From Clostridia bacterium (GTDB taxonomy: Bacteria; Bacillota; Clostridia; Oscillospirales; Acutalibacteraceae): DNA of 40,833 nucleotides. The notes under the pieces were generated by a model. The model was not told the origin of the DNA, made no database searches, and was given only the letters and a program-made list of their open reading frames with translations. A program made the translations under genes and the position numbers. Position 1 is the first letter of the stretch, and each line of letters starts with the position of its first letter. The stretch covers positions 1 through 40,833 of the forward strand of contig JAFQON010000023.1 in assembly GCA_017403185.1 (NCBI GenBank), in the 5' to 3' direction. Of this stretch, positions 6,497 through 22,262 are shown one piece after another.

Positions 6497-8988
6497 CTAA
6501 AATTATAAGCCTTATACTGAGCTTTTTCACGGCTCTCAGCCTTGCGGCGGAGGGTCTGCCCTATATGTTTCAGCCCACTGTTGAGATTGATGCGGCGGTG
6601 AGCATGGGCGAGGTGTCGAGCAGGGCATCGGGTTATCTTTACGGCATTGCGCAGAGCAATGTGCCTGACTCTGCAATGACTGAAAGCGTTGATATTGCGA
6701 GTGTTTCGCAAAAGGTTATCGGCGGCCTGCAGCATCCGATAGGCGATGTTGACGATGCTGCGCCTGCACTCGGCAACTGCGATTATATCACGGTTTATCT
6801 GCAGGATTGCTTTGACACCTGGTATTACTGCAACGATGAAATATGGCAGATGCGAAAGGCGGGCACCTATGACCATATGGATTTTGTGCGCACCCGTTTT
6901 TTGCCACAGGTTGAAGAGAAGGTGAGAGAACTTTCTCAAAAAGAATATTCGGACAAGCTCGTTTACTGCATATATAACGAAGCTGATAACGGAGTTTGGT
7001 TCGGCACGATGTCAGATGACGGCACATGGCTGATGTTTGACGATGCGGCAAAGCAGCGGTTTTATGAAGCGTGGAAGGAGACCTATAATCTCGTCAAATC
7101 CATTGACCCCGATGCGAGAATCGGCGGCCCGGGCAACTGCGATTATGACAGCTATGAGATAAAGCATTTTCTTGAATACTGCAAGGCGAATAACTGCGTG
7201 CCCGATGTTATGATTTATCACGAATTGGGCGATAAATCATCTTTGTATTGGCAGGACCATGTTGATGACTACCGCAGAATTGAGAATGAACTCGGCATTG
7301 ATGAATTGCCGATAATCGTTACCGAATACGGCACGATGTATGAGTGCGGCGCACCTGCGGATATGCTGAAATATGTTGTGCAGATTGAGAATTCGGGTGT
7401 TTACGGCAACATGGCATATTGGCGCCTTGCCAACAATCTTAACGATACTGCGGCGGATAACAACAGCCCCAATTCAAATTGGTGGCTCTTCCGCTGGTAT
7501 GCGGATATGGAGGGCAGCCTGCTCAAATCAAAGATAATTGATGTTTTGCACGCTGATTTTGCCAATGTGATAAAATACGGCTTTGACCGTTTCCATTACG
7601 GCGGCTTCACGGGCATTGCATCCCTCACCGACAGCAAGGATGAGATAAATGTTATCTGCGGCGGCTGCGACTATTCGGGCAATGTGTGCTTCAAAAATCT
7701 TGATGAAACAAACCTCGGCAAAAAGGTGAATGTGCGCATAGAGTGTGTTTATTTTGAGGGTCTGAGCGGTGTTGTCACCGAGCCGTATGTTGTGCACGAA
7801 TACACCGACACCGTAACCCTCGGCAGGTTAAAGGTTAAGCTTGAAAACATCGACCCTACGGCGGTTTATCATATTGTGATTACCGAGGCAGAGGGTGATG
7901 TTGATTACAAAGAAGCTCTTCCCGTGCGCTATGAATTTGAACACGGCACGAGAAGCGGCGGGTCATATACCTACGACAGTGCATACGCCACAACGGGTGA
8001 GCTTCAGGGAATGGTCGGCGGCCTTGAAAACCTCGGCGACAGCGTAACAGTGAATTTTGAAATCCCCGAGAGCGGATACTATGACCTTTCGCTCATCTAC
8101 GGCAATTCAAATGACGGGCGCACTCCCGCTGACCGCAAGGATACCCTTGCAACAATGACCGTTGACGGCGTGAGCGAAGAAATTGCCTTCCCCAACACAA
8201 TCAAGAGCGAATACACCGATAAAATGACCTTTACCCGTTATTTTGAAGCGGGTACACATACCCTTAATCTTGCCCATAAGAGCGGCACTTTTGTTGTTGA
8301 CAGCCTGCTTGTTGTGCCTCACAGCGATGATAAGTCGATAGCCGTTCTGAAGGATTCGGACAGAACAACCTCTGCAGTAAAATCCTTCCTTGCGGTGTCG
8401 CCTGACGACGGATTTTATGAAATGAACATCGGCGTGAATGCCGATTTTGAGCTTGACGGCGCAGAATACACTGCCGAAAACGGCAATGCGCTTGTGTATC
8501 TGAGAAGGGGTCTTAATTATATTGATATCAAAACGGCAGAGGATATCGCCTGCGATATTGTGAAATCAGAAAAAACGGGCTTCACCGTAAGCGTTTCGGC
8601 AAGTGAAATGACCCTTGACGGCGCGGCTCTCAGCGGCAATTACATAGACGGAATTTCATCGCTCGGCGGCAGTGCATCGTTTAAAGTGACCGTGCCCGAA
8701 AGCGGCAGCTACCGCATGACCCTTGCATACGCAAACAACGATGAGGGCGGAGTGCACAGCTACAATGTTGACCTTATCGAGCGATATGTTACCGTTGAAG
8801 CAAACGGCAGATTGCAGACCCTCTGGTGCAGAAACACATATAGCTGGGATACCGTTAAAACCGCAACAATAAACCTTGAGCTTGCGGCAGGGGAGAATGA
8901 AATTGTTCTTTCAAATGACGGCTCGGTCAGATTCAACGGCAACGATTCACACGCTCCCCATATCTACGGCGTAACGGTCAACAGGTGA
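6493..8988 (+). CDS. Secreted clan GH-A glycoside hydrolase (GH39-like) with CBM-like modules
   Basis: An 831-residue protein with an N-terminal signal-peptide-like helix (residues about 3-20). Residues roughly 45-370 look like a TIM-barrel glycosidase: the acid/base candidate is Glu163 in CIYNEADNGVWFG and the nucleophile candidate is Glu278 in IVTEYGTMYECG, as in clan GH-A. The C-terminal half holds two beta-rich modules resembling CBM6/CBM35, around residues 475-620 (YEFEHGTRSGG...) and 690-831. Its start overlaps the FAD gene stop by ATGA. The GH43 enzyme and mutarotase downstream suggest a plant or dietary hemicellulose substrate. The family number is my best guess; GH5, GH30 or an uncharacterised clan-A family remain possible. 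Confidence 0.7.
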   Translation: MTKIISLILSFFTALSLAAEGLPYMFQPTVEIDAAVSMGEVSSRASGYLYGIAQSNVPDSAMTESVDIASVSQKVIGGLQHPIGDVDDAAPALGNCDYITVYLQDCFDTWYYCNDEIWQMRKAGTYDHMDFVRTRFLPQVEEKVRELSQKEYSDKLVYCIYNEADNGVWFGTMSDDGTWLMFDDAAKQRFYEAWKETYNLVKSIDPDARIGGPGNCDYDSYEIKHFLEYCKANNCVPDVMIYHELGDKSSLYWQDHVDDYRRIENELGIDELPIIVTEYGTMYECGAPADMLKYVVQIENSGVYGNMAYWRLANNLNDTAADNNSPNSNWWLFRWYADMEGSLLKSKIIDVLHADFANVIKYGFDRFHYGGFTGIASLTDSKDEINVICGGCDYSGNVCFKNLDETNLGKKVNVRIECVYFEGLSGVVTEPYVVHEYTDTVTLGRLKVKLENIDPTAVYHIVITEAEGDVDYKEALPVRYEFEHGTRSGGSYTYDSAYATTGELQGMVGGLENLGDSVTVNFEIPESGYYDLSLIYGNSNDGRTPADRKDTLATMTVDGVSEEIAFPNTIKSEYTDKMTFTRYFEAGTHTLNLAHKSGTFVVDSLLVVPHSDDKSIAVLKDSDRTTSAVKSFLAVSPDDGFYEMNIGVNADFELDGAEYTAENGNALVYLRRGLNYIDIKTAEDIACDIVKSEKTGFTVSVSASEMTLDGAALSGNYIDGISSLGGSASFKVTVPESGSYRMTLAYANNDEGGVHSYNVDLIERYVTVEANGRLQTLWCRNTYSWDTVKTATINLELAAGENEIVLSNDGSVRFNGNDSHAPHIYGVTVNR

Positions 8989-8992
8989 TATT

Positions 8993-9688
8993 ATGACAGA
9001 GGAATATATCCGCAGCCGCCTTTTTGAGCTGCAGGACGAAGGCTACAGGGATTTTCATTCAAGGCTTATGCCGACTGTTAAAAAGGAGCTTATAATCGGT
9101 GTGCGTACACCCGACTTGCGAAGGCTTGCAAAGGAGATTTCAAAAACGGAGCACTGCACCGAATTCCTGAAAATCCTGCCCCATAAATACTATGAGGAGA
9201 ATAATCTTCATGCCTTCCTTATCGAAGAAATAAAGGATTACAACGCTTGTATTTGTGAAATAAATCGTTTTTTACCCTTCGTTGATAACTGGGCAACCTG
9301 CGATATGCTGCGCCCGAAGATATTCAAAAAGCATCTGCCCGAATTGGTTGAAGAAATCAAAAAATGGCTGGAATCCGAGGATGTTTATGCAGTTCGTTTC
9401 GGCATTGAGATGCTGATGTGTTATTACCTTGATGAAGCGTTCAGCCCCGAATATCCCGAACGGATTTCACAAATCAGGAGCGATGAATACTACATAAAAA
9501 TGATGCTTGCATGGTATTTTGCAACGGCACTTGCAAAGCGGTATGACGAGGTGATACCTTACCTTGAAAATAACCGCCTTGATGCCGATACCCATAACAA
9601 AACAATCCGCAAGGCGGTTGAAAGCTTTCGCATAACCAATGAGCAAAAGGCGTATCTTCGCACATTGAAAAGGAGAGAATTACAATGA
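8993..9688 (+). CDS. AlkD-like DNA alkylation repair protein
   Basis: A 231-residue all-helical HEAT-like repeat protein of the DNA alkylation repair (AlkD) family, whose members remove alkylated bases from DNA. The diagnostic segments are VRTPDLRRLAKEI near the N-terminus, the helix with FLPFVDNWATCDML, then AVRFGIEMLMCYYL and the C-terminal NKTIRKAVESFRI. It begins four bases after the glycosidase stop, and its own stop overlaps the GH43 start by ATGA. A repair enzyme between two carbohydrate enzymes is odd. The family is quite sure; the biological link is not. Confidence 0.88.
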   Translation: MTEEYIRSRLFELQDEGYRDFHSRLMPTVKKELIIGVRTPDLRRLAKEISKTEHCTEFLKILPHKYYEENNLHAFLIEEIKDYNACICEINRFLPFVDNWATCDMLRPKIFKKHLPELVEEIKKWLESEDVYAVRFGIEMLMCYYLDEAFSPEYPERISQIRSDEYYIKMMLAWYFATALAKRYDEVIPYLENNRLDADTHNKTIRKAVESFRITNEQKAYLRTLKRRELQ

Positions 9689-10722
9689 AAAGAGTGATAT
9701 CTTTTATTCTTGCTGCTCTGCTACTGATCGGAGGTGCTTGTGTGAGCGCAAACGCACAGGGTGAATACCCCTTCAAAACAACCGACGGGCTTGTGCGTGA
9801 CCCGTATGTGCTCGTTTATGAAGGCAAGTATTATCTTTACGGCACCTGCCTTTCAAACGGCAAGGGCTACGGCTGCGTTGTGAGCGAGGATCTTGAGAAT
9901 TGGTCATATCCCGTGCAGGTCTATACCCCCGCCGAGGGCTCTGACGAAATTGCCGATTTCTGGGCGCCCGAGTGCCATTATTATAACGGCTCATTTTATC
10001 TTTTTGCCACCTACCGCTCGCAGGCAAGCGGCAAAAGGGGAACGGCGATTTATAAAAGCTCTTCGCCCCTCGGACCGTTTGAGATGATAACCGACGGTCA
10101 CATAACGCCGAAGGCGATTGACTGCATTGACGGCACTCTTTATATTGACGGCAGCGGTCAGCCGTGGATGGTCTATGTTAACGAATGGACTTCAAGCCCC
10201 GATGAGGTGGGCGAAATGGCTGCGGCAAGGCTCAGCGAGGATTTGAGCCGATTTATCAGCGAGCCCATTGTGCTTTTCAGAGCGAGAAATCATATCTGGA
10301 CTACGGGCAAAGTTACCGACGGCCCATGCCTTTACCGCACAAAGAACGGCAGGCTTATCATGCTGTGGTCAAACATTTCAAAATCGGGCGGCTATGCGGT
10401 CGGCATGGCGGTTTCAGATAACGGCGAGATAGACGGCAACTGGATTCATTACCCCGAGGCTTTTTATGAAAGAGGCAGCTTTTTTGAGTATGACGGCGGT
10501 CATCCCATGCTGTTTTATACCCTTGACGGCAGGCTGACAATGGCAATCCATTCGCCCAACGGGGCAACAGACGGCGTGGTTGAAACGGCGACCTTCCTGC
10601 CAATTAAGGATACGGGCGATTTAATTGAAATCGAAGGGAAATACACCTTCGGCGATGCTTTTTACAGAGCATTTTTTGAGGTGTATTACAATATAATCAA
10701 GCTTTGGTATAAGATTTTTTAA
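9685..10722 (+). CDS. Secreted GH43-like glycoside hydrolase with C-terminal amphipathic tail
   Basis: A 345-residue protein with a signal peptide (residues 1-24, cleavage after SANA). The five-bladed propeller signs are the catalytic base region LVRDPYVLVYEGKYYLYGT, then FWAPECHYYNGSFYLFATYR and the acid region VTDGPCLYRTKNGRLIMLWS. Many GH43 enzymes have Glu before GP; here it is Asp, seen in some subfamilies. Activity would be on arabinofuranosyl or xylosyl side groups. The last 26 residues, after KYTFGDAF, are aromatic and amphipathic (FYRAFFEVYYNIIKLWYKIF) and do not belong to the GH43 fold. Similar tails end the esterase at 18443 and the protease at 20475. Confidence 0.85.
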   Translation: MKRVISFILAALLLIGGACVSANAQGEYPFKTTDGLVRDPYVLVYEGKYYLYGTCLSNGKGYGCVVSEDLENWSYPVQVYTPAEGSDEIADFWAPECHYYNGSFYLFATYRSQASGKRGTAIYKSSSPLGPFEMITDGHITPKAIDCIDGTLYIDGSGQPWMVYVNEWTSSPDEVGEMAAARLSEDLSRFISEPIVLFRARNHIWTTGKVTDGPCLYRTKNGRLIMLWSNISKSGGYAVGMAVSDNGEIDGNWIHYPEAFYERGSFFEYDGGHPMLFYTLDGRLTMAIHSPNGATDGVVETATFLPIKDTGDLIEIEGKYTFGDAFYRAFFEVYYNIIKLWYKIF

Positions 10723-10733
10723 GGAGAATTAAT

Positions 10734-11576
10734 ATGTATTACAAAATTGAAAATGAATTTTTAACCTGCGAAATCGACGATATGGGTGCTCAGCTTCATT
10801 CGCTTGTGCTCAAAGAAAACGGCAAGGAATATATCTGGCAGGGCAACCCCGATATATGGTACGGTCAGGCACCCGTGCTTTTCCCCGTTATCGGTCAGCT
10901 TATCGGCGATAAATTCCGCTACAACGGCATTGAATACACAATGCCCAAGCACGGTCTTGCAAGAAAGCTGCTTTTCAATGTTAAGCAGTGCGAAGGCGCA
11001 AAGGCGGTGTTCAGCCTTGAAAGCGATGAAAACACGCTCAGAAGCTACCCGTTTGAGTTTGAATATCTTGTAACATTTGAGCTTAAAGATAAAGCGCTCG
11101 TCAACACAATGACGGTTATCAATAAAACAAAGGGTGAAATGTATTTTTCGGTTGGTGCGCACCCCGCATTCAACTGCAAGGTGGGCGATGTCATTGAGTT
11201 TGAGCAGCCCGAAACCCTCTCAACCGAGCGTATTGACAAGGAAAATCTTATCATTGATGAAAAATTCCCCCTTATCGAAAATTCAAGGGAAATTGAAATC
11301 ACAAAAGAGATTTTTGAGCCCGATGCACTCATTCTCTCTGATATCAAATCAAAGAAGCTCCGCATAACGGGTGATTATGAAATCGAATTCACCTTCGGCG
11401 ACTGCCCCTTCCTCGGCATCTGGGCAAAGCCGGGCGCACCCTATGTGTGCATTGAGCCGTGGTACGGCGTGAATGACGGCAGAGAAGTTAAAGCCGATAT
11501 TTCGGAAAAGAGAGGAATTCAGCACCTCAACGAGGGCGAAAGCTTTGAGTTTGCCTGGATTGCAGAGGTTAAATAA
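10734..11576 (+). CDS. Aldose 1-epimerase family protein (galactose mutarotase-like)
   Basis: A 280-residue mutarotase-like protein (LacX-type subgroup) that would interconvert anomers of hexoses or related sugars. Seen motifs: GAQLHSLVLKENGKEYIWQG at the N-terminus, a His in YTMPKHGLARK, a His in VGAHPAFNC and a C-terminal CIEPWYGVNDG. AAGGAG lies directly upstream with good spacing, 11 bases after the GH43 gene. It is the last gene of the operon begun at 5132 and is followed by a strong terminator. It has no signal peptide, so it acts in the cytoplasm on imported sugar. Confidence 0.9.
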   Translation: MYYKIENEFLTCEIDDMGAQLHSLVLKENGKEYIWQGNPDIWYGQAPVLFPVIGQLIGDKFRYNGIEYTMPKHGLARKLLFNVKQCEGAKAVFSLESDENTLRSYPFEFEYLVTFELKDKALVNTMTVINKTKGEMYFSVGAHPAFNCKVGDVIEFEQPETLSTERIDKENLIIDEKFPLIENSREIEITKEIFEPDALILSDIKSKKLRITGDYEIEFTFGDCPFLGIWAKPGAPYVCIEPWYGVNDGREVKADISEKRGIQHLNEGESFEFAWIAEVK

Positions 11577-11581
11577 TAAAC

Positions 11582-11622
11582 AAAAATCCCGTTGACCTAA
11601 AAGTCAACGGGAAATTTTTTTG
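11582..11622. terminator. Bidirectional terminator between convergent genes
   Basis: A nine-base-pair perfect stem CCCGTTGAC (11588-11596) / GTCAACGGG (11603-11611) is flanked by AAAAA on the left and a run of eight T on the right. It can end both the mutarotase operon and the metH operon. Confidence 0.9.
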
Positions 11623-11629
11623 CCTTTAT

Positions 11630-13978
11630 TCAATTAAAAACCGTCTCTGCGTATCTGACTGCCGCCATGGCATCGGTGCCGTAGCTGTCTGCGCCTATCA
11701 TTTCGGCATATTCCGCCGTCATAACCGCTCCGCCGACCATTACCCTGCATTCGGGTGCCGCCTTTCGCAGAAGCTTGATTGTTTCTTCCATTGCGGGTAC
11801 GGTAGTGGTCATAAGTGCGCTTAAGCCCGCAAGGCGGATGTTTTCTTTTATAACCGTGTCAACGATTTTTTGCGGCTCAACATCCTTGCCGAGGTCAAAA
11901 ACATCATATCCGTAATTCTCCAGAAGAACTTTAACAATGTTTTTGCCGATATCGTGGATATCGCCCTTGACCGTTGCGATAACGATTTTGCCCTTCTTGC
12001 TTTCACCTGCGGGGATTGCCGCCTTGATTGCATCAAACGCTTCCTTTGCCGCCTGAGCGCTCATGAGAAGCTGAGGCAGATACACCTTCTTTTCTTCAAA
12101 GCCCTTGCCCACGGTGTTGAGGGCGGGGATAATCATTGTGTCGATAATCTCAAGCGGCGAAGCTGTTTTGAGCATTTCAGCCGCCGCCATGCCTGCCTGC
12201 TCCTTAAGACCGCTTATGATGCAGCCGTCAAGGCTCTTATCATTTTTTGCGGCGGATGCGCTTTCGGCAGGTGAAAGTGCCGATGCAAATTCAATGTAGT
12301 CCGTGCAGTTTTCATCCTTGCCCGTGAGTGCCGTGAAGCAGTGCCACGCCTTCATCATCTCAACCGAGAAGGGGTTGATTATAGCGCAGTCAAGCCCGTT
12401 TTGCATCGCCATGGTGTAAAAAACGGCGTTAACATCGGGTCTTGACGGCAGACCGAATGAAATGTTTGAAACGCCGAGGCTTGTTATGATGCCCATGCCG
12501 TGAAGTATTTTAACCGCTTCAAGCGTAACATTTGCGCTGTTGCCGTCGCTTGAAACAGCCATTGCAAGCGGGTCAACAATAATATCGTTTTCGCCTATGC
12601 CGTATTCGGCGGCACGGGCAATTATTTTTTTTGCAATCTCAACTCTGCCCTCTGCGGTGTCGGGGATTCCGCCTTCGTCAAGAGTAACGGCAATCACAAC
12701 GCCGCCGTATTTTTTAATCAGCGGAAATACCGCCTTCATGCTGTCTTCCTTGCCGCTTACGGAATTCACAAGGGGCTTGCCGTTATAAATGCGCATTGCC
12801 CTTTCCATTGCCACGGGGTCAACGGTGTCAATCTGCAGCGGCAAATCAATAACGCCCTGAAGAGCTTTTATAACGCTCACCATCATCTCAGGCTCGTCAA
12901 TTTCAGGCAGACCTACATTCACATCAAGCACCGAAACGCCCTTTTTATTCTGCGCAAGTCCCTCGCTCAGAATGTAGTTTATATCGTTTTTGCGAAGCGC
13001 CTCTTTAAAGAGCTTTTTGCCCGTGGGGTTGATTCTTTCGCCGATTATCACGGGCTTTTCGCCGATTTTAACGGCGTGTGTGTAGGATGAAATGACGGTG
13101 TTATTCTTCTTTTCGGGAAGAATAAACGGCAGATTTTTTGTTTTTTCAACCGTTTTTGCAATATGCAGAGGGGTTGTGCCGCAGCAGCCGCCGATGATTG
13201 TTGCGCCCGCCTTTACGATTTCACACATTATATCCGAAAATTCAGCCGCATCAACATCAAAAACGGTCTTTCCGTTTTCGCTTCGGGGCAGGCCTGCATT
13301 GGGGTTGACGATTACGGGCACGCTTGCGTTTTTCACAAATTCGGGCACGATTTCAAGCATCTGCCCGGGGCCGAGTGAGCAGTTTATGCCGAGCGCATCA
13401 ACGCCCAGACCTTCAAGCATCGCAATCATTGAGGCAGGGTCAGCACCCGTCATAAGCTTCTTTGTTTCGTCATAAACGCAGGTGATGAAAACGGGCAAAT
13501 CGCAGCTTTCCTTTGCGGCAAGCACAGCCGCCTTGGCTTCAAGGCTGTCATTCATGGTTTCAATCAGCACAAGGTCCGCACCTGCAGCAGCACCGATTTT
13601 AATTGTTTCTGAGAAAATCGACACCGCTTCTTCAAAATTCAGATCGCCGAGCGGCTCAAGCATTTTGCCCGTGGGGCCGATATCAAGCGCAACAAAGGCA
13701 TCATATCCGCTGCAGGCGGTTTTTGCATTTTTTATTGCGGCTGTGACGATTTCTTCAAGATTTATAAATTTGAGCCTGTTTGCACCAAAGGTGCAGGAGG
13801 TTATAATCTGTGCACCCGCTTCAAGGTAGAGGCGGTGCATCTCAACTATCTTTTCGGGGCGTGTGATATTCCACATCTCGGGGTATTCGCCCGCTTTCAG
13901 CCCCCACGACTGCAGGAGCGTGCCTGCGCCGCCGTCACAATATGTTATTGAAGATTTGATTTTTTCAAGAATGTTCAT
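11630..13978 (-). CDS. metH: Cobalamin-dependent methionine synthase, catalytic part
   Basis: A 782-residue methionine synthase, transferring methyl from methyl-tetrahydrofolate through cobalamin to homocysteine. Order of domains: homocysteine S-methyltransferase with zinc ligands (GINCSLGP and IIGGCCGTTP), pterin-binding domain (IIGERINPTGKKLFKEAL), cap helices, and B12 domain with the cobalamin His motif VKGDIHDIGKNIVKVLLEN. It ends after the B12 domain; the reactivation domain is absent and encoded separately just upstream. ATG 13978 is chosen because AGGTGATT precedes it; the longer frame adds 20 residues inside the upstream gene. It is cytoplasmic. No S-box or cobalamin riboswitch was visible upstream. 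Confidence 0.95.
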   Translation of the reverse strand: MNILEKIKSSITYCDGGAGTLLQSWGLKAGEYPEMWNITRPEKIVEMHRLYLEAGAQIITSCTFGANRLKFINLEEIVTAAIKNAKTACSGYDAFVALDIGPTGKMLEPLGDLNFEEAVSIFSETIKIGAAAGADLVLIETMNDSLEAKAAVLAAKESCDLPVFITCVYDETKKLMTGADPASMIAMLEGLGVDALGINCSLGPGQMLEIVPEFVKNASVPVIVNPNAGLPRSENGKTVFDVDAAEFSDIMCEIVKAGATIIGGCCGTTPLHIAKTVEKTKNLPFILPEKKNNTVISSYTHAVKIGEKPVIIGERINPTGKKLFKEALRKNDINYILSEGLAQNKKGVSVLDVNVGLPEIDEPEMMVSVIKALQGVIDLPLQIDTVDPVAMERAMRIYNGKPLVNSVSGKEDSMKAVFPLIKKYGGVVIAVTLDEGGIPDTAEGRVEIAKKIIARAAEYGIGENDIIVDPLAMAVSSDGNSANVTLEAVKILHGMGIITSLGVSNISFGLPSRPDVNAVFYTMAMQNGLDCAIINPFSVEMMKAWHCFTALTGKDENCTDYIEFASALSPAESASAAKNDKSLDGCIISGLKEQAGMAAAEMLKTASPLEIIDTMIIPALNTVGKGFEEKKVYLPQLLMSAQAAKEAFDAIKAAIPAGESKKGKIVIATVKGDIHDIGKNIVKVLLENYGYDVFDLGKDVEPQKIVDTVIKENIRLAGLSALMTTTVPAMEETIKLLRKAAPECRVMVGGAVMTAEYAEMIGADSYGTDAMAAVRYAETVFN

Positions 13979-13983
13979 GTTAA

Positions 13984-14634
13984 TCACCTGTAGGGGCAGT
14001 CGGTTTTTTTGCAAATCATGCAGCCCGGGCCCGTGCATTTATTCTTTTCTTTGCCGATGCCGATTATCGCCGTAACGGATTTTACGGGCACCATCATCAG
14101 GCTGTCGGTAAGGCTCATTCCTATGTTTTTCTTTGTCTGCAGGAATTCGACAATATTCCTCTGGCATTCAAGCGGCAAATCGCCGTAGCCGGGGCTGAAT
14201 CGGGGGCGCAGATACTCTGCATTTTCAAACGATGAATTCAGCTTATCGCAGAATGCTTCAATCGCCGCCGAGCCCACGCAATCCGTAACAACGCCTTTGA
14301 GCGGAGAAATAACCGAATTGCGTTCAATCAGCCTGTGTGCATCAATCCCTGTTGTTGCCGCCATAATATACGCATAATCGCAGCCTGCAAGGTTCTTTTC
14401 AAGCGATTTGCTGTTGACCTTCATAAAGCCGAGGTCAACTCCGTTTTTGATTTTTACGGGCACCTTCTCACAGCAGGCGATGAAGCTTGCGCAATTCCTG
14501 AATTCCTCGGCGCAGTCACACATAAGCGCATCTGCGGCTTCATCGGGCTTTACGGAATAATAGCCGAGATAAACGGCAACCTCTTTGGGGTCAATGTTTA
14601 TTTCGGCTGCTTGTAATTTTATAATCTGTGTCAT
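13984..14634 (-). CDS. MetH reactivation-domain protein (separate gene)
   Basis: A 216-residue homologue of the AdoMet-binding activation domain of methionine synthase, which remethylates oxidised cobalamin with S-adenosylmethionine and a reductant. The AdoMet motif is seen as LRPRFSPGYGDLPLE, equivalent to RxxPGY of MetH. The catalytic part starts five bases after its stop, so together they replace the four-domain enzyme. The C-terminus carries CTGPGCMICKKTDCPYR, a four-Cys cluster that could bind zinc or an iron-sulphur cluster and is unusual for the domain in one-piece MetH. Separate activation proteins are known in Clostridia and Thermotoga. Confidence 0.9.
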   Translation of the reverse strand: MTQIIKLQAAEINIDPKEVAVYLGYYSVKPDEAADALMCDCAEEFRNCASFIACCEKVPVKIKNGVDLGFMKVNSKSLEKNLAGCDYAYIMAATTGIDAHRLIERNSVISPLKGVVTDCVGSAAIEAFCDKLNSSFENAEYLRPRFSPGYGDLPLECQRNIVEFLQTKKNIGMSLTDSLMMVPVKSVTAIIGIGKEKNKCTGPGCMICKKTDCPYR

Positions 14635-14637
14635 AAA

Positions 14638-15180
14638 TTATGCCTTTTTCTTAAATATAAACAGCTTGCTGAAAATATAATTGAGAATAACCACCACAAC
14701 GCCCACGATGAGCTTTGAAATAAGCTCGGGAATGGTGAGCAGGGTAACAAAAACAAACATCATTGCGGTTTCGATAACAAACGAGAAAAGCCTTGCGCCG
14801 ATGAATGCAACAAATTCCTTGCCCGCAACGGCAGGCTTCCAGCTTTTTGAGTTGAAAACCCAGAGCTTGTTTGTGACAAAGGCAAAAATAACGGTGATAA
14901 CCCATGCAATGCAGTTTGCGTCAAGGTATGCCGCATCGCCGTCAAATAATTTTTGCAAAAATGAGCCGTCGGGCAGAATGTTGTGAGAAACGCCCTCCCA
15001 GCCGATTGATAAAAACAGCTCATGGAATATCCAGAAAACAACAAAGTTGAGCACGGTTGCAAGCACACCGAAAAAGATGTATACCACAATTTCCTTTGTG
15101 AAAAATTTGTCAATGAGCTTGCCGATGAAGCTCTCTTTTTTGAAAAGCTTAAAAAGCAGTTCCCTTATTTTTTCAATCAT
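14638..15180 (-). CDS. GtrA-like membrane protein
   Basis: A 180-residue protein with four predicted membrane helices, for example IVVYIFFGVLATVLNFVVFW and WVITVIFAFVTNKLWVF. The FFGVLATVLNF and FVTNKLWVFNS motifs are typical of GtrA/DPMS-like flippases, which help move polyprenyl-linked sugars or modify surface glycans. CGGAG lies upstream of ATG 15180. The next gene, the MetH activation protein, starts three bases after its stop, so it probably shares the transcript although no functional link is known. Confidence 0.88.
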   Translation of the reverse strand: MIEKIRELLFKLFKKESFIGKLIDKFFTKEIVVYIFFGVLATVLNFVVFWIFHELFLSIGWEGVSHNILPDGSFLQKLFDGDAAYLDANCIAWVITVIFAFVTNKLWVFNSKSWKPAVAGKEFVAFIGARLFSFVIETAMMFVFVTLLTIPELISKLIVGVVVVILNYIFSKLFIFKKKA

Positions 15181-15220
15181 AATTTTAACTCCGAAAAAAA
15201 TTATATACTTTGATTATGAA

Positions 15221-15336
15221 AAAATGAATAGTGAATAATGAAAAGTGAAAAATTTCGGAAGGGCTCTGCCCTTGCCCGATTATAATAAGCGTCGCAGACC
15301 CTTAATTATTCATTATTCATTTTTCACTATTCACTT
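15221..15336 (+). repeat. Palindromic intergenic repeat, family 1, copy A (inverted orientation)
   Basis: About 115 bases with terminal inverted repeats made of GTGAATAATGAAAAGTG-like units. The core, read on the minus strand, begins AATTAAGGGTCTGCGACGC and continues through a hairpin AAGGGC-AGA-GCCCTT. The same core occurs at 20137-20255 and 26631-26744 in the opposite orientation. No protein is encoded. It resembles a MITE. Confidence 0.85.
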
Positions 15337-15403
15337 GTTTTACCCTCGTTAACCAAAGTGTAATATTATTTTAAAACAAAATAACAATAAAGTCAATAAA
15401 CCC

Positions 15404-15431
15404 TTGCATTTTTAATACTTTATGATAAAAT
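15404..15431 (+). promoter_or_regulatory. Candidate promoter of the DUF1624-like gene
   Basis: TTGCAT (15404-15409) and TAAAAT (15426-15431) are 16 bases apart. The ribosome binding site AGGTGA follows immediately and the start codon is at 15448, so the untranslated leader would be very short. Confidence 0.35.
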
Positions 15432-15447
15432 AATATGAGGTGAATTT

Positions 15448-16224
15448 ATGAGAACAGATACCGCAGCGAAAAAAAGAATATTCTTAATAGACGAGATAAG
15501 AGGTCTTGCGGTGCTGTGCATGATTTTTTATCATGCGTTCTATGTTTTTGATTCATTCTTTGATTGGGAATGGGCGGATGCACTTTTTAAATTCTTTATG
15601 CCCGTTCAGCCGTTTTTTGCGGGGATTTTCATTTTTATCTGCGGAATTTCCTGCACCCTTTCAAAAAATAACCTCAAAAGGGGAGCAATCCTGCTCGGTG
15701 TTGCTCTCGGCTTTACGCTTGTGACGGCGGTTGTTATGCCGAAGCTCGGCTTTATTGACTGCGAAATCTATTTCGGAATCCTGCATTTTCTTGCGGTGTC
15801 AATTCTGATTTATGCTCTGCTTTCAAAGCCGCTTTCAAAAGTTCCGCCTGCAATCGGCGTGATTTTCTGCGCAGCTCTTTATCCTTTTACAAGCGGCATT
15901 TCAGAGGGCTTGCTCAGCTACGGCGGGCTTGTTGTGTGCAAAATCCCCGAGGTGCTTTACGGCAGCAACCTGCTCATGCCCCTCGGAATTTACAAACAGG
16001 GCTTTTTCTCAGCGGATTATTTTCCGCTTTTCCCCGATATATTCATCTTCCTTTCGGGAGTGTTTGCGGGGCTTCACCTTGCCAAAAACGGTTATCCCGA
16101 ATTTTCTTATTCAAAAAGAATTCCGTTTTTCGGCTTTCTCGGCAGAAATGCTTTGCCGATTTATGTTGTCCATATGCCAATAGTCTATGCTTTGGGATAT
16201 ATAATAAATATGATTATTAATTAA
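15448..16224 (+). CDS. DUF1624/heparan-alpha-glucosaminide acetyltransferase-like membrane protein
   Basis: A 258-residue membrane protein with about seven hydrophobic helices. The N-terminal RIFLIDEIRGLAVLCMIFYH is the signature of the DUF1624/YeiB-like acyltransferase group, with the first-helix Asp-Glu-x-Arg-Gly and a conserved His at the helix end. A GISCTLSKNN loop and a C-terminal GRNALPIYVVHMPIVYAL helix agree. The family is thought to move acyl groups across membranes, but few members have known substrates. The ribosome site is GAGGTGA. The stop is 16 bases before mrp; the genes may be co-transcribed. Confidence 0.85.
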   Translation: MRTDTAAKKRIFLIDEIRGLAVLCMIFYHAFYVFDSFFDWEWADALFKFFMPVQPFFAGIFIFICGISCTLSKNNLKRGAILLGVALGFTLVTAVVMPKLGFIDCEIYFGILHFLAVSILIYALLSKPLSKVPPAIGVIFCAALYPFTSGISEGLLSYGGLVVCKIPEVLYGSNLLMPLGIYKQGFFSADYFPLFPDIFIFLSGVFAGLHLAKNGYPEFSYSKRIPFFGFLGRNALPIYVVHMPIVYALGYIINMIIN

Positions 16225-16240
16225 GACAGGAGAATTAATT

Positions 16241-17071
16241 ATGAGTGAAGGATGCAGCGGCAACTGCTCAAGTTGCGCAAGTAATTGCGATTCAAGAAAA
16301 GAAGCGCAGGATATGAGAATTCCGTGCGGACCTTTCAGCAATATAGGCAAGGTTATCGGCGTTGTAAGCGGTAAGGGCGGCGTTGGCAAATCGCTTGTCA
16401 CCTCGATGCTTGCAAGCGCAATGCAGGCAAGGGGCAAGTCATGCGCCGTGCTTGATGCGGATATCACGGGCCCCTCAATCCCCAAATCGTTCGGAATTAA
16501 AGAGAGAGCAAAGGCAGACGAAAGCGGCCTTCTGCCCGAAGAGAGCAAAACAGGCATCAAGGTTATGTCAATCAACCTTCTTCTTGAGAACGAGGAGTCG
16601 CCCGTTGTGTGGAGAGGCCCCGTTATCTCGGGCGTTATCCAGCAGTTCTGGAAGGATGTTGCATGGGGCGATGTTGACTATATGTTTGTTGATATGCCTC
16701 CCGGCACGGGCGATGTGTCGCTCACCGTGTTCCAGAATCTGCCCGTTGACGGCATCGTTATCGTAACAACTCCGCAGGATCTTGTTACAATGATTGTCAA
16801 AAAAGCGTTCAACATGGCAAAGCTTATGAATATCCCCGTGCTTGGCCTTGTTGAGAACATGAGTTATTTTGTTTGCCCCGACTGCGGCAAGGAATACAAA
16901 ATCTTCGGCGAAAGCAGAATTGACGAAATTGCCGCCGAGCTTGGTGTGCCCGTGCTCGCAAAGTTCCCCATCGATCCCAAAACGGCATCGCTTGTTGATA
17001 AGGGTGCCATCGAGCTTGCAGACGACAAATATATCGCATCAGCCGTTGACTTTATTTCAAATTTGGATTAA
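16241..17071 (+). CDS. Mrp/NBP35-family iron-sulphur carrier ATPase
   Basis: A 276-residue P-loop protein. The deviant Walker A is VVSGKGGVGKSLVTSML near residue 48, Walker B region is DYMFVDMPPGTGDVSLT, and a CPDC pair stands near residue 210. The N-terminus has CSGNCSSCASNC, four spaced cysteines as in NBP35-type scaffold proteins. The family carries Fe-S clusters to apoproteins in the cytoplasm. ACAGGAGAA is a strong ribosome site. It is followed 35 bases later by serS. Confidence 0.92.
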   Translation: MSEGCSGNCSSCASNCDSRKEAQDMRIPCGPFSNIGKVIGVVSGKGGVGKSLVTSMLASAMQARGKSCAVLDADITGPSIPKSFGIKERAKADESGLLPEESKTGIKVMSINLLLENEESPVVWRGPVISGVIQQFWKDVAWGDVDYMFVDMPPGTGDVSLTVFQNLPVDGIVIVTTPQDLVTMIVKKAFNMAKLMNIPVLGLVENMSYFVCPDCGKEYKIFGESRIDEIAAELGVPVLAKFPIDPKTASLVDKGAIELADDKYIASAVDFISNLD

Positions 17072-17106
17072 AATAACGGATATAAAACCTTCAGGAGTTG
17101 AAAAAT

Positions 17107-18393
17107 ATGCTTGATATCAAATTTTTAAGAGAAAATCCCGATATCGTAAAAGAAAATATAAAAAAGAAGTTTCAGGACAGCAAGCTTGCACTCGTTGATG
17201 AGGTAATCGAGCTTGATGCGCAGTCAAGAGCAATCAAGTCCGAGGCTGACGGTCTCAGAGCAAACCGCAACAAGGTTTCAAAGGAAATCGGTATGCTTAT
17301 GGCTCAGGGCAAGAAGGAAGAGGCAATGGCAGCAAAGTCAAAGGTAACCGAATATTCCGAAAGACTTGCCGAATGCGAAAAGCTTGAAGCTGAGTACGCC
17401 GAAAAGGTTACCAAGATAATGATGGTTATTCCCAACATCATCGACCCGAGTGTGCCCGTCGGCAAGGATGACAGCGAAAATGTTGAGGTTACAAAATACG
17501 GCGAGCCCGTAGTGCCCGATTTTGAAATTCCTTATCACACCGAGATTATGGAGCGCTTCAACGGCATCGACCTTGATGCTGCAAGAAACGTTGCGGGTAA
17601 CGGCTTCTATTATCTTATGGGTGATATCGCACGCCTTCATTCAGCCTGCATCTCATATGCAAGGGATTTTATGATTGACAGAGGCTTCACCTATTGCGTG
17701 CCCCCCTTCATGATTCGCAGCAATGTTGTAACAGGCGTTATGAGCTTTGCCGAAATGGATGCAATGATGTATAAGATTGAAGGCGAGGACCTCTATCTTA
17801 TCGGCACAAGTGAGCATTCAATGATCGGCAAATATATCGACACCATCGTTAATGAGGACACCCTTCCTCACACCCTCACAAGCTATTCACCCTGCTTCCG
17901 TAAGGAGAAGGGTGCCCACGGCATTGAGGAGAGAGGCGTTTACAGAATTCATCAGTTTGAAAAGCAGGAAATGATTGTTGTGTGCAAGCCCGAGGACAGC
18001 ATGATGTGGTTTGAAAAGCTCTGGCAGAATACCGTTGACCTTTTCCGCTCACTCGATATCCCCGTCAGAACTCTTGAATGCTGCTCAGGCGACCTTGCAG
18101 ACCTTAAGGTCAAGTCATTCGATGTTGAAGCATGGTCACCCAGACAGAAGAAGTATTTTGAGGTCGGCTCCTGCTCAAATCTCGGCGATGCTCAGGCACG
18201 CAGGCTCAAAATCAGAGTCAACGGCAAGAACGGCAAGTATTTTGCGCACACTCTCAACAACACTGTTGTTGCTCCTCCCAGAATGCTCATTGCGTTCCTT
18301 GAGAATAATCTCAATGCAGACGGCAGCGTGAATATCCCCGTTGCTCTCAGACCCTATATGGGCGGCAAAGAGAAGCTTGTTCCCGTTAAATAA
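17107..18393 (+). CDS. serS: Seryl-tRNA synthetase
   Basis: A 428-residue class II enzyme that charges tRNA-Ser with serine. The N-terminal coiled-coil arm spans about residues 25-105 (SRAIKSEADGLRANRNKVSK). Motif 2 is CFRKEKGAHGIEERGVYRIH and motif 3 NNTVVAPPRMLIAFLEN; the segment DLYLIGTSEHSMIGKY replaces the common TAEVPLTN version, so the protein belongs to a less usual SerS clade. ATG 17107 lies nine bases after AGGAG; TTG 17098 in the same frame touches the site and is rejected. No T-box leader is seen. Confidence 0.93.
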   Translation: MLDIKFLRENPDIVKENIKKKFQDSKLALVDEVIELDAQSRAIKSEADGLRANRNKVSKEIGMLMAQGKKEEAMAAKSKVTEYSERLAECEKLEAEYAEKVTKIMMVIPNIIDPSVPVGKDDSENVEVTKYGEPVVPDFEIPYHTEIMERFNGIDLDAARNVAGNGFYYLMGDIARLHSACISYARDFMIDRGFTYCVPPFMIRSNVVTGVMSFAEMDAMMYKIEGEDLYLIGTSEHSMIGKYIDTIVNEDTLPHTLTSYSPCFRKEKGAHGIEERGVYRIHQFEKQEMIVVCKPEDSMMWFEKLWQNTVDLFRSLDIPVRTLECCSGDLADLKVKSFDVEAWSPRQKKYFEVGSCSNLGDAQARRLKIRVNGKNGKYFAHTLNNTVVAPPRMLIAFLENNLNADGSVNIPVALRPYMGGKEKLVPVK

Positions 18394-18399
18394 TATAAA

Positions 18400-18440
18400 A
18401 AACCCTCTGTATTTTACGATGAAATACAGAGGTTTTTTTG
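18400..18440. terminator. Bidirectional terminator between serS and the esterase
   Basis: An 11-base-pair stem CCTCTGTATTT (18404-18414) / AAATACAGAGG (18422-18432) has a seven-base loop, a T run on the right and an A run on the left. It ends serS and the convergent esterase gene. Confidence 0.88.
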
Positions 18441-18442
18441 CT

Positions 18443-19504
18443 TTATAATCCGAGCATCCTTTGAAAAATATTGACAACCTTGAGTGCGTAGTTGCGGATT
18501 GCGTTGAAAAATCTTTCAAATACGGTTACGGTTGTGTTGCCCGTGCCCTCGGCAGCCTCACCGTTATAATCCGAGGATATCGAATTCATCCAGCTTATGA
18601 TACCGTTGGGGCTTTCAAGCGAAACGCTGCTGCCGCTGCCGTCAACGGTTGAAGCGTTGGGGTATGCGCTGCCGTCAAGCATATGAAGGTCATATGTGAT
18701 AACCTTTGCCATGTGGTGGTTGTCGCTTGCCGCATTCCCCGCAGGCTCGGTAACATCCGTGAGCGTTGTCAGACGGCAGTCAGATGGCGTGCTGTTGTAT
18801 TTGCGCACATTGTTCCAGAGCGGAGTTGTGACCAGATTGTAGTTAACGGCGGGGTCTTTGGTGCTGGATATCATCCATATTGCCACATCACGGCAAGCCC
18901 TGACATCGGCTGCGGTGACCGTGCCCGTTGATGCAATCGGGAATGCACCCGCAAAATATTCGGGGTAGGCAACGATCATGTTCCATGCCATTTCGCCGCC
19001 TGCCGAGCTGCCGGTGATAAAAATTTTTGTTGTGTCAATATTGCTGCCGTGCTTTGCAATCATATCGTCAATTACGGCACGGAGAGGCTCGAGAAGATCG
19101 GTGCTCCAATATACAAGCTTATCTTCGGGTGAACGGGGGAGCAGGATATATGCGCCGCCGCTTTCAAAACGGCTCTGAAGCTCCGCCGATGCCCAGTACG
19201 GCATATCGCTGTCGTCAAGCTGAGCGTTAACATAGTCTGCGTGACCTATGCCGTGAAGGAATATTACAAGAGGGTATTTTGTGCCGTCATTCTCACCTGC
19301 GGGTGAATAGTAGCAGTAGTCAAGGGCGTATCCGCCATCCTTTGGCGCAACATCGCTTTCGAATTCATCACGCAGTGCTTCAATGCCCGCAGAGGTGGGC
19401 AGTGCTGTTTTGCGCTGTGAAACGGCAGATGCGCTTATGCACACAAGCGAAAGTAACACGCAGACAGCCATGATAATTGAGAGAGCTTTTTTGAAAGGTT
19501 TCAT
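18443..19504 (-). CDS. Secreted alpha/beta-hydrolase esterase with amphipathic C-terminal tail
   Basis: A 353-residue protein with a signal peptide (residues 1-27, ending SASA). The fold is that of PHB-depolymerase/feruloyl-esterase-like hydrolases: the oxyanion segment PLVIFLHGIGH and the nucleophile elbow GSSAGG with Ser167. Asp in STKDPAVN and a downstream His (NHHMAK or DLHML) may complete the triad. It would cleave ester groups outside the cell, such as on plant polysaccharides. After a Gly/Thr/Glu-rich linker (GEAAEGTGNTT) the last 25 residues, FERFFNAIRNYALKVVNIFQ followed by RMLGL, form an amphipathic helix like those of the GH43 and protease. AAGGGG lies nine bases before ATG 19504. 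Confidence 0.85.
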   Translation of the reverse strand: MKPFKKALSIIMAVCVLLSLVCISASAVSQRKTALPTSAGIEALRDEFESDVAPKDGGYALDYCYYSPAGENDGTKYPLVIFLHGIGHADYVNAQLDDSDMPYWASAELQSRFESGGAYILLPRSPEDKLVYWSTDLLEPLRAVIDDMIAKHGSNIDTTKIFITGSSAGGEMAWNMIVAYPEYFAGAFPIASTGTVTAADVRACRDVAIWMISSTKDPAVNYNLVTTPLWNNVRKYNSTPSDCRLTTLTDVTEPAGNAASDNHHMAKVITYDLHMLDGSAYPNASTVDGSGSSVSLESPNGIISWMNSISSDYNGEAAEGTGNTTVTVFERFFNAIRNYALKVVNIFQRMLGL

Positions 19505-19603
19505 TTACGGCAACCCCTTTTTATATACTTTTGAATATTTTAGGGGGGAAATGTTACCGAAATGTTAATAAAAAAATAATTTTTCAGATCCTTTATCTCG
19601 TGT

Positions 19604-19954
19604 CTATTCCGCCCCTATACCGAGGCTTACCGAAAGGGCTCTGTCAACCCTGAGCATATCCGTTTCGTCAAGTATTCCCATTTTTTCGCGCAGCCTTTTT
19701 TTGTCAAGCGTGCGCACCTGCTCAAGCAGCACAATGGAATCCTTCGCAAGCCCGCAGCCGTCGGCATTGACTCTTATGTGGGTGGGCAGGCTGGTTTTGA
19801 AGCGTTGGCTTGTTATTGCGGCGGCAATAACCGTGGGGCTGAATTTGTTGCCCACATCGTTCTGAACTATCAGAACGGGCCTTGTGCCGCCTTGCTCCGA
19901 GCCGATTACGGGGCTCAGATCGGCATAATAAATTTCTCCCCGTTTAACCGTCAA
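19604..19954 (-). CDS. MazF/EndoA-type endoribonuclease toxin
   Basis: A 116-residue (from TTG 19954) PemK/MazF-fold protein that cuts single-stranded RNA at short motifs. It matches Firmicute EndoA throughout: VKRGEIYYADLSPVIGSEQG, RPVLIVQNDVGNKFSPTVI, then LPTHIRV and DSIVLLEQVRTLDKKRL. Start choice: ATG at 19963 and 19960 touch or nearly touch the GGAG site, while TTG 19954 has nine-base spacing and gives TVKRGE, where family members begin. No MazE-like antitoxin gene is next to it; a 19-codon ORF (19944-20003) overlaps the start. It may be a solitary toxin or be controlled by an antitoxin elsewhere. Confidence 0.93.
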   Translation of the reverse strand: MTVKRGEIYYADLSPVIGSEQGGTRPVLIVQNDVGNKFSPTVIAAAITSQRFKTSLPTHIRVNADGCGLAKDSIVLLEQVRTLDKKRLREKMGILDETDMLRVDRALSVSLGIGAE

Positions 19955-20078
19955 AATCATCATCTCCGTTGAAAGTTAAGTTGTTCATAACTATTTTTGG
20001 CATACGGCAGGCAAATTAAACGCATTTTTGAAATCGGGGAGCAAAAAAATTTCAAAATTGCCTGTCCTTCCTATTCCT

Positions 20079-20107
20079 ATTATATACATTTCATGGGAAA
20101 ATGTTAT
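20079..20107 (-). promoter_or_regulatory. Candidate promoter of mazF
   Basis: On the minus strand a perfect TATAAT (20079-20084) lies 17 bases after a weak ATAACA (20102-20107). The leader to the start codon would be about 115 nt. The -35 match is only 4/6. Confidence 0.4.
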
Positions 20108-20136
20108 GGATAATTCGCCTTGCGGCAATCATATCA

Positions 20137-20255
20137 GTGAAAAATGAATAATGAAAAGTGAATAATGAATAATTAAGGGTCTGCGACGCTTATTATATTC
20201 GGGCAAGGGCAGAGCCCTTCCGAAATTTTTCATTCTTCATTATTAATTTTTCACT
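20137..20255 (+). repeat. Palindromic intergenic repeat, family 1, copy B
   Basis: The same repeat as 15221-15336, opposite orientation. The ends are GTGAAAAATGAATAATG-like inverted repeats and the core AAGGGTCTGCGACGCTTATT leads to the AAGGGC-AGA-GCCCTT hairpin. It lies in the gap between mazF and the protease, a stretch of about 470 bases with no gene that is mostly repeats. Confidence 0.85.
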
Positions 20256-20260
20256 CGGAT

Positions 20261-20358
20261 TTGTCATCCTGAACGCAGTGAAGGATCTCAGGTAAAATGA
20301 AGCAAAGAAACCGTTCCGCCGTCAGCAGAGATTCTTCGCTTCGCTCAGAATGACAAAT
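20261..20358 (+). repeat. Palindromic intergenic repeat, family 2
   Basis: The left arm TTGTCATCCTGAACGCAGTG (20261 on) and the right arm GCTTCGCTCAGAATGACAA (ending 20356) form an imperfect inverted repeat of about 29 bases per arm, with a 40-base middle. The first 37 bases recur at the window end (40799-40833 and just before). Similar CATCCTGA/TCAGAATGA pairs occur in many bacterial genomes as REP/MITE-like DNA. Confidence 0.8.
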
Positions 20359-20474
20359 CTGTATAATTCATTGTGCGATAATTAAAATTTTTTTGCTTTT
20401 TTTCAAAAAAACACAAACCAAACCGATTTTTGGTTCGTCTTATAGGTGAAAGACAAAAAACGGAGATGATATAT

Positions 20475-22262
20475 ATGAAAAAAACATTCAGAAAAACAGC
20501 ATCCTTAATCCTTGCAGCAGCAATCGGTGCACTTTCGTTTTCATCGGCAATTCCCGCATTTGCGGCGGATGAGCCCATTGTTATTCATGTTGAGCACGGA
20601 GAAACAAGCGAATTCGGTTATCAGCCTTACCGCTATGTTGACGAAAACGGCAACGAAGTGAACTTCGGGCAGGAAGAGGTTTTGTTCACCTGCTCGGCAA
20701 ATAATCTTCCTGCCGCTTACGATGCAAGGGAAAAAGGGATTATCACCAAGGTTAAAAATCAGGGCGATGCAGGCAACTGCTGGGCGCACGCAGCCATGAG
20801 CCTTATGGAAACAAGCAGTGTGCTCAAGGGCTACGACACCGCAGAGGACGCCGATTATTCCGAGGCACACCTCACATGGTTTACGGGCAAGGGTCTTGCG
20901 GAAGACGAGAATGATTTGGCATACGGCGACGGCTATGACCTTGAAGACCCCTATAACTACGGCGGCAACTGGAAAAGAGCTGCAGGTGCAATGGCGAGAT
21001 GGTCTGGCGTCGCAGAGGAGAGCGAGTTCCCCTCATACCCGAGAAATGTTGCGGCAATGGGCAATTATGAAGAAGCAGACAGATACAACACTTCATCGGG
21101 CGTTATCCTTGAATCCGCTCAGGCACTCACGGATGATAACGATGTCAAGCAGTGGATTTATGAAAACGGCTCGGCAACGGTTGCTTTCTGCCAGAACAGC
21201 AAGTATCTCAACAAAGAGACCGCTGCATATTGCTGCCTTGAAAATTACTCTGTTAACCACATGATTACAATTGTCGGCTGGGATGACGATTATCCTGTTG
21301 AGAATTTCGGCACCGTGAAGCCTTCGGGCAACGGCGCATGGCTTTGCAAAAACAGCTGGGGCGAAAGCTGGGGCGATAACGGATACTTCTGGCTCTCATA
21401 TGAGGACGAAACAACAGCTCTTTTTGCAGGCTTCACCGCTCAGCAGGCTGATAAATACTATAAAAACTATACCTACAACGGTGCAGAATGGAACACTGCT
21501 TACGGCACCTACGGCTCCGTTCAGGTTGCCAATGTTTTCACCGCAACGGGCAATGAAAAGCTCACTGCGGTTGCGGTTCAGACCGTCGGCACAAATATCA
21601 GAACAAGAATTAAGGTTTATAAGGGCATCGCAGACGGCAGCACAAATCCCGTGGGCACCACCCTTGCCGCAAGCTGCGAAACCGTTCTCGAAAGAGAAGG
21701 CTATCACACAATTTATCTTGACAGCGGTGTTTCGCTTGAAAAAGGCGAAAAATTCTCGGTTGTTGCCGAATATTATAATCTTGACACAAAGATAACCTTC
21801 TTCCCCGTTGAGGACAGAACGGTTGACTGTCAGTTCTATTCAAGCAGAGAGGGCGAGAGCTTTGTGAATTACGGCACAAGCGCAAATTCATGGCAAACTG
21901 CCGCATCCGAAGAATTCAACAATGTGTTTGTTCAGGCGTTTACCGAATGCGCTCATAAGTATGCCGAAAAAACCGAGGGCGTAACCTGCACCGAAGACGG
22001 CGTGAAGGTAACATACTGTGAGCAGTGCGGCAAGGTGGAGAGCGAAACCGCAGTTTCACACACGGGCCACAGCTTCGGCACTTGGAGTCAGTTCAAAAGG
22101 AACGCAGACGGTGACGAAATCAGCACAAGAGAGTGCATTCACTGCGGCAAGACCGAAACAAGAAAGCTCAGCCAGATGAATGTTGTAACTGTTGACAGCC
22201 TGTTTGAAATGCTTTTTGCAAGGTTTATTGAAATATTCAGATCATTGTTTTCATTAAAATAA
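20475..22262 (+). CDS. Secreted papain-family (C1) cysteine protease with lectin-like domain, CxxC repeats and C-terminal tail
   Basis: A 595-residue secreted protease. The signal peptide spans residues 1-30 (cut after PAFA). The C1 catalytic residues are clear: Cys102 in QGDAGNCWAHAAM, His262 in VNHMITIVGWDDD and Asn293 in CKNSWGESWGDNGY. Next comes a beta-rich region (about 330-490) like the lectin-like domain of clostridial C1 peptidases. Two Cys-rich units follow (CTEDGVKVTYCEQCGKVE and STRECIHCGKTE), a form common in secreted Clostridia proteins. The end is an amphipathic tail, SLFEMLFARFIEIFRSLF, like two other secreted proteins here. ATG 20475 has CGGAG nine bases upstream. Confidence 0.9.
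   Translation: MKKTFRKTASLILAAAIGALSFSSAIPAFAADEPIVIHVEHGETSEFGYQPYRYVDENGNEVNFGQEEVLFTCSANNLPAAYDAREKGIITKVKNQGDAGNCWAHAAMSLMETSSVLKGYDTAEDADYSEAHLTWFTGKGLAEDENDLAYGDGYDLEDPYNYGGNWKRAAGAMARWSGVAEESEFPSYPRNVAAMGNYEEADRYNTSSGVILESAQALTDDNDVKQWIYENGSATVAFCQNSKYLNKETAAYCCLENYSVNHMITIVGWDDDYPVENFGTVKPSGNGAWLCKNSWGESWGDNGYFWLSYEDETTALFAGFTAQQADKYYKNYTYNGAEWNTAYGTYGSVQVANVFTATGNEKLTAVAVQTVGTNIRTRIKVYKGIADGSTNPVGTTLAASCETVLEREGYHTIYLDSGVSLEKGEKFSVVAEYYNLDTKITFFPVEDRTVDCQFYSSREGESFVNYGTSANSWQTAASEEFNNVFVQAFTECAHKYAEKTEGVTCTEDGVKVTYCEQCGKVESETAVSHTGHSFGTWSQFKRNADGDEISTRECIHCGKTETRKLSQMNVVTVDSLFEMLFARFIEIFRSLFSLK

Follow-up and report, generated by a model that had tools for sequence, protein, structure and literature searches.

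FtsA is a cytosolic protein that acts at the inner face of the membrane. It ends in a linker and a C-terminal helix, and the helix is potentially membrane-interacting according to PMC3384640. DD-carboxypeptidases of the PBP5/DacA type (Peptidase_S11 plus PBP5_C) combine a signal peptide and a soluble catalytic domain with a C-terminal amphipathic helix; Escherichia coli PBP5 becomes soluble once its last 18 residues, which form the membrane-binding helix, are removed (PMC2909392). In the LPXTG/sortase and PEP-CTERM/GlyGly-CTERM systems, a short C-terminal extension is common to unrelated exported proteins (excerpts of PMC1569441 and PMC3237569). Here, we describe aromatic, amphipathic C-terminal tails on three exported enzymes encoded by contig JAFQON010000023.1 (assembly GCA_017403185.1, family Acutalibacteraceae), which we analyzed over its 40,833 nucleotides (hereafter, the window) and which belongs to an uncultured bacterium related to ruminant-gut Clostridia. 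The tails are probably interfacial (monotopic) membrane anchors of the PBP5 kind, reused on many exported proteins. No paper on such tails was found among open PubMed Central papers.

The first-pass annotation had proposed that a GH43 enzyme, an esterase and a papain-like protease with different folds share such an end (Table 1). All three tails are present in the open reading frames (ORFs), and all are amphipathic and aromatic. The GH43 ORF terminates in FYRAFFEVYYNIIKLWYKIF (best 18-mer: hydrophobic moment, muH, 0.697; mean hydrophobicity 0.83; net charge +2), the esterase ORF in FERFFNAIRNYALKVVNIFQRMLGL, and the protease ORF in SLFEMLFARFIEIFRSLFSLK (best 18-mer: muH 0.589; mean hydrophobicity 0.88; net charge 0), the final Lys of which the annotation had missed. 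The folds do differ: Glyco_hydro_43, an alpha/beta hydrolase (Abhydrolase_2, with PHB-depolymerase models below cut-off), and Peptidase_C1 with Lectin_like. The tails lie outside the catalytic domains, in that none of the matched Pfam or NCBIfam stretches shown extends into them. The best such stretches of ten further proteins, nine of them tail-bearing by the rule or profile described below and the tenth, L004, below the rule, also stop before the C-terminal end. The short linker said to precede the tails is visible in the esterase; the GH43 tail comes almost directly after ..KYTFGD-. On alignment, the three tails have a common property and no common motif.

Known C-terminal signals were sought on the same proteins. 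As the annotation had stated, LPXTG, dockerin and SLH are absent from all three (ORF sequences and Pfam scan). There was also no NCBIfam match to PEP-CTERM or GlyGly-CTERM, and PF07943 (PBP5_C) was not found at E 0.001. Unlike PEP-CTERM and GlyGly-CTERM proteins, the three enzymes have no transmembrane segment by a 19-residue rule. Unlike LPXTG/sortase substrates, signal-peptide proteins in our sample of the same genome have no LPXTG-like motif in their last 45 residues.

We measured the frequency of tails in that sample, which comprised 40 stretches plus the window (763,490 bases) of a metagenome-assembled genome (MAG) of 80% completeness. Genes and signal peptides were called with home-made rules, not SignalP. 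The exported set was by definition without transmembrane segments, and membrane proteins were tallied apart. The tail rule called for an aromatic amphipathic 18-mer within the last 34 residues with a moment of at least 0.5. Tails on exported proteins are commoner than chance: the rule was passed by 14 of 77 exported, three of 350 cytosolic and two of 165 membrane proteins, and by six of 1,540 ends produced by cutting exported proteins at random internal points. The first sample, after a look at which the rule was fixed, gave 7/41 exported versus 0/172 cytosolic proteins; the second alone gave 4/31 versus 3/156 (Fisher p 0.015), and the window alone 3/5 versus 0/22. Neither of the two other exported window proteins (6493-8988 and 27141-29438) passed, in agreement with the annotation. 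Another genome of the genus, G017, had tails on 11 of 48 exported and two of 155 cytosolic proteins; some of the 11 look like chance, and this genome is not fully independent, because several of its stretches contained earlier profile matches. The enrichment on secreted proteins that the annotation expected thus holds in both genomes. In G026, from another family of the order, the counts were 0/12 exported and 2/222 cytosolic. When the first two genomes were pooled under a relaxed lipobox rule, tails were found on two of 25 exported proteins with a lipobox and 23 of 100 without. Amphipathic-looking ends below the rule were also seen on exported proteins L013:9649-13212, L012:10075-11655, L004:13890-16112 and L032:12395-13822; the rule misses such proteins, so that 14 may be an underestimate.

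The homologues of the three enzymes were then compared. Among the GH43 homologues (30 of 45 matches read), all seven with a signal peptide, counting the window enzyme and being 55-100% identical to it, have a Phe/Tyr/Ile-rich C-terminal extension, and five of them pass the tail rule. None of the 23 without a signal peptide passes, and all of them stop at the catalytic domain. L205 was placed among these because its signal-peptide call was an N-terminal overrun. The seven exported enzymes form one similarity group, so they amount to little more than a single evolutionary contrast. In named relatives, 21 of 23 esterase homologues passed, or 22 of 24 with the window esterase (23 of 25 loci used; L064 is partial and L065 distant); they represent one family rather than independent events. 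Protease homologues passed in 16 of 28 cases (28 of 30 loci gave an ORF; L235 and L237 did not).

Amphipathicity was then assessed. In a shuffle test of the moment over the last 26 residues (p 0.05), the value was exceptional for 24/24 esterases (window's included), 5/7 exported GH43 enzymes and 18/28 proteases, as against 1/23 cytosolic GH43 enzymes and 54/350 cytosolic proteins. Hydrophobicity above 0.6 together with a moment above 0.45 was found for 21/24, 5/7 and 19/28 of the same families, and for 0/23 and 4/350 of the controls. The amphipathic property is kept more than the sequence.

A structure was modeled for the window esterase with AlphaFold2 (24 alignment rows, mean predicted local distance difference test score, pLDDT, 88). 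The model comprises a domain (residues 41-308; best Foldseek match, esterase 3doh), a loop (309-327) and a helix (328-350). Confidence falls from 83 to 57 along the loop, is about 68-72 in the helix and exceeds 90 in much of the domain. The helix was modeled with confidence for the esterase alone; the window protease model (two rows, mean pLDDT 38.5), which drew a helix at 573-592, was not used. Each tail might simply be the terminal helix of its enzyme's structure, packed on that enzyme and conserved for stability. The retention of a rule-passing tail by 21 of 23 esterase and 16 of 28 protease homologues fits this. The annotation had named conservation of each tail within its enzyme's own family as a point against its reading; this is half borne out, by the esterases and partly by the proteases. 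Nevertheless, we regard packing of this kind as highly improbable: confidence drops just ahead of the helix and is about 70 within it, 23 GH43 homologues are without the extension, and similar ends occur on different folds. A frameshift artefact as the origin of the tails was rejected because the tails recur across genomes.

Two grades of tail were distinguished: a sharper FFxKIIxFFKxLFG form and a looser form, the latter on the three window proteins. Because alignments of the three tails and of 11 tails were too divergent, profiles of the FF type (A4, A5 and A8) were built and used instead. The FFxKIIxFFKxLFG profile yielded 11 matches in the own genome at E <1e-3. A search of 30 genomes gave matches in 18: the own genome and 17 of the 18 further members of the genus. 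The 11 genomes that represented other families of the order had none. Profile-matched ORFs were obtained from 29 of the 30 loci taken from this search (not from L097). For every one of the 41 ORFs that scored E 1.5e-3 or better (39 distinct genes, six of them profile seeds), the main match ends at most 11 residues from the C-terminus; three also have a minor second stretch.

The spread of the FF form was estimated at several taxonomic levels. Within the genus, 43 of 45 genomes matched A8 at E 1e-4, with 269 matches summed. Within the family (135 genera sampled), 47 of 200 genomes matched A5 at E 0.05, and 18 of 197 genomes outside the genus did so at E 1e-3. Readable matches were obtained for 25 of 29 new loci from the family search, 24 of them at most 18 residues from the end. 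At E 0.003, A8 matched six of 390 other genomes in a class sample and three of 397 others in a phylum sample, with about one expected by chance in each. A strict class search with A5 (E 1e-4), which served as a specificity control, matched 0 of 391 other genomes. Eight same-family genomes of other genera in the A8 class sample (E 0.003) gave no match, so the spread within the family is patchy. The C-terminal module is real, concentrated in one lineage and outside the library matches seen. Positive A8 scores were obtained for 19/24 esterases (among them L063, also a profile seed), 5/7 exported GH43 enzymes, 11/28 proteases and 6/10 selected DD-carboxypeptidases, versus 1/23 cytosolic GH43 enzymes and 17/350 cytosolic proteins. 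The esterase homologues L063 and L162 carry an FF-type tail where the window esterase has the looser one, and the protease homologue L231 has a different, longer FF-rich end in place of the looser tail of the window protease. On homologous enzymes, tail forms replace each other.

Outside the family, there were nine profile matches (L240, L241, L242, L243, L244, L245, L286, L287 and L288). L287 and L288 are DD-carboxypeptidases (Peptidase_S11/PBP5_C) with the match at their end, and a third, L174, inside the family, has it at its last residues. L241 is an FtsA, the last 12 residues of which match the profile (14.8 bits inside the ORF; in the genome search, the match overran the stop). In two exported proteins, L242 (DUF1002) and L286, the match is at the C-terminus, and L245 also ends with a match, but is cut. 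The own-genome DD-carboxypeptidase L277 ends similarly to the tails. Of the retention, sorting or assembly roles suggested by the annotation, membrane retention is the best supported, because three DD-carboxypeptidases and one FtsA also have C-terminal ends that the tail profile finds; nothing was found for sorting by a partner or for complexes, the partner search being limited to sortase.

On the anchor reading, the protein would first be exported via Sec, after which its C-terminal 18-25 residues would form an amphipathic helix. Through a face of Phe, Tyr, Trp, Ile and Leu, this helix would lie in the cytoplasmic membrane's outer leaflet and hold the enzyme or adhesin at the cell, with no need for a lipid, a sortase or a transmembrane segment; the helix at the C-terminus of PBP5-type DD-carboxypeptidases acts in this way. 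In the genus, the tail would have been turned into a general module of many unrelated exported proteins. We infer membrane binding, its sidedness and a benefit from retention. The tails differ from the PBP5 helix in being found on GH43, esterase, protease, GH16, phosphatase and leucine-rich repeat (LRR) proteins, and in the lack of a PBP5_C match on the window three. They resemble the FtsA membrane targeting sequence, an amphipathic C-terminal helix behind a flexible linker, but belong to exported proteins.

Several observations weigh against such an anchor. Only 16 of 28 protease homologues and four of 29 readable DD-carboxypeptidases from the own and related genomes (L268, L277, L280 and L283; 30 loci taken, L267 unread) pass the tail rule. 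The net charge varies in sign from tail to tail (11 positive, 10 negative and three zero among the esterases; 14, 10 and four among the proteases). A lipid-binding discriminant gave poor separation, being passed by 11/24 esterases and 14/28 proteases and also by 106/350 cytosolic controls. Two tail proteins additionally have a lipobox-like motif. No tail was found on 30 other exported proteins near the esterases of named relatives, mostly ruminant-gut MAGs, a count made after the removal of 20 BLAST-confirmed esterases; the L041 protease fell narrowly below the cut (0.464). Three of the nine matches outside the family (L240, L243 and L244) are on short frames and are probably chance. Finally, a membrane-bound polysaccharidase in a thick-walled cell would lie under the wall.

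Tail carriers other than the window three were diverse. By the rule, the own genome also has tails on esterase paralogues (L013 and L020), a GH16 enzyme (L012), metallophosphatases (L002 and L021), a CehA-like metallohydrolase by sub-cut-off match (L034), an LRR_5 protein (L010) and two proteins without curated function (L018 and L039); the profile adds L067 and L068, LRR_5 and InlB-repeat proteins. Such sharing among unrelated enzymes would suit an assembly signal, in which tails bind one another or a scaffold and gather the enzymes into a surface complex, as dockerins do, and amphipathic helices in which Phe and Ile form a long face are generally able to bundle. We consider this unlikely: tail sequence differs strongly within a single enzyme family, and Pfam showed no dockerin on the scanned proteins, although no scaffold search was made. 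Alternatively, the tail may act on outside substrates such as lipid droplets, bile-salt micelles or plant cuticle, or as a membrane-disrupting peptide, instead of anchoring its own protein. Aromatic, strongly amphipathic helices are known to bind many interfaces, yet carriers that range over LRR/InlB-repeat proteins, phosphatases and proteases need have no common hydrophobic substrate, and we hold such a role to be very unlikely.

FF-type tails also end two small exported proteins, L005:15652-16515 (-) and L021:17565-18431 (-), with C2H2-type zinc-finger motifs (Pfam zf-C2H2 for L021, sequence only for L005), which are odd for a secreted bacterial protein. In a further variant, the helix stands between CxCxCH-like and CxCG(xxH)-like clusters, as in CPCKCHQGGIAGFFYKIVLFFQKLFGNNKICEFCGAKH; it was seen at L018:3069-4973 (-), L037:3-473, L091, L092, L093, L094, L155, L156 and L173, and from its letters looks like a zinc-bracketed helix.

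The recurrence of FFxKIIxFFKxLFG on unrelated proteins, in 43 of 45 genus genomes and rarely in the class and phylum samples, could also reflect a dedicated sorting tag that a clade-specific partner would read and might cleave, with the logic of LPXTG or PEP-CTERM minus the transmembrane segment. Such a tag appears improbable, given that the window tails share the property rather than this motif and that sortase occurs in 29 of 30 relatives, including other families of the order. The same sortase matches led us to reject the tail as a sortase replacement. The two own-genome matches (G000 C46:25725-26240 and C31:46576-47094) lie in long open frames of 642 and 670 amino acids. A broader version, which we would place among the rather unlikely readings, is a clade-specific surface-display code with hundreds of copies in the genus (the 269 matches in 45 genomes): a dedicated partner would read a degenerate amphipathic tail, by which exported proteins would be delivered to the membrane face or to a membrane domain or vesicle, with the zinc-bracketed CxCxCH-helix-CxCGxxH type as its second form.

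The coordinates of the three enzymes and their tails are listed in Table 1. Among their neighbors, the large exported protein at 6493-8988 (+), which lacks a tail, has CBM_35 and a sub-cut-off GH39 match, and a PemK/MazF-like toxin gene (19604-19963 (-); Pfam E 5.2e-35) lies between the esterase and protease genes.

Table 1. Tail-bearing exported enzymes encoded in the window.
Feature	Position	Strand	Basis
Exported GH43 enzyme, 345 amino acids	9685..10722	+	N-terminal signal peptide; Pfam Glyco_hydro_43, residues 35-293, E 9.7e-33
GH43 amphipathic aromatic C-terminal tail, FYRAFFEVYYNIIKLWYKIF	10660..10719	+	Sequence
Exported alpha/beta-hydrolase esterase, 353 amino acids	18443..19504	-	ORF; weak Pfam/NCBIfam matches; AlphaFold2 model; Foldseek
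Esterase C-terminal helix (model residues 328-350) and last residues, VFERFFNAIRNYALKVVNIFQRMLGL, after loop 309-327	18446..18523	-	AlphaFold2 model; 24-row alignment
Exported papain-like protease with lectin-like domain, 595 amino acids from ATG at 20475	20475..22262	+	Pfam Peptidase_C1, E 1.1e-21; Lectin_like, E 1.2e-20
Protease amphipathic C-terminal tail, SLFEMLFARFIEIFRSLFSLK	22197..22259	+	Sequence

The proposed mechanism is a variant on a known kind of anchor; the surprise lies in how widely the tail is used and how strongly it is concentrated in one genus. Predictors limited to lipoboxes, LPXTG motifs or transmembrane helices would label the tail proteins as freely secreted. If the tails do anchor, a substantial part of the exported proteins of the genus, about a fifth in the two genomes sampled, would be cell-bound. 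Models of polysaccharide and protein breakdown by the genus would then change, and the tail would offer a short portable tag for surface display.

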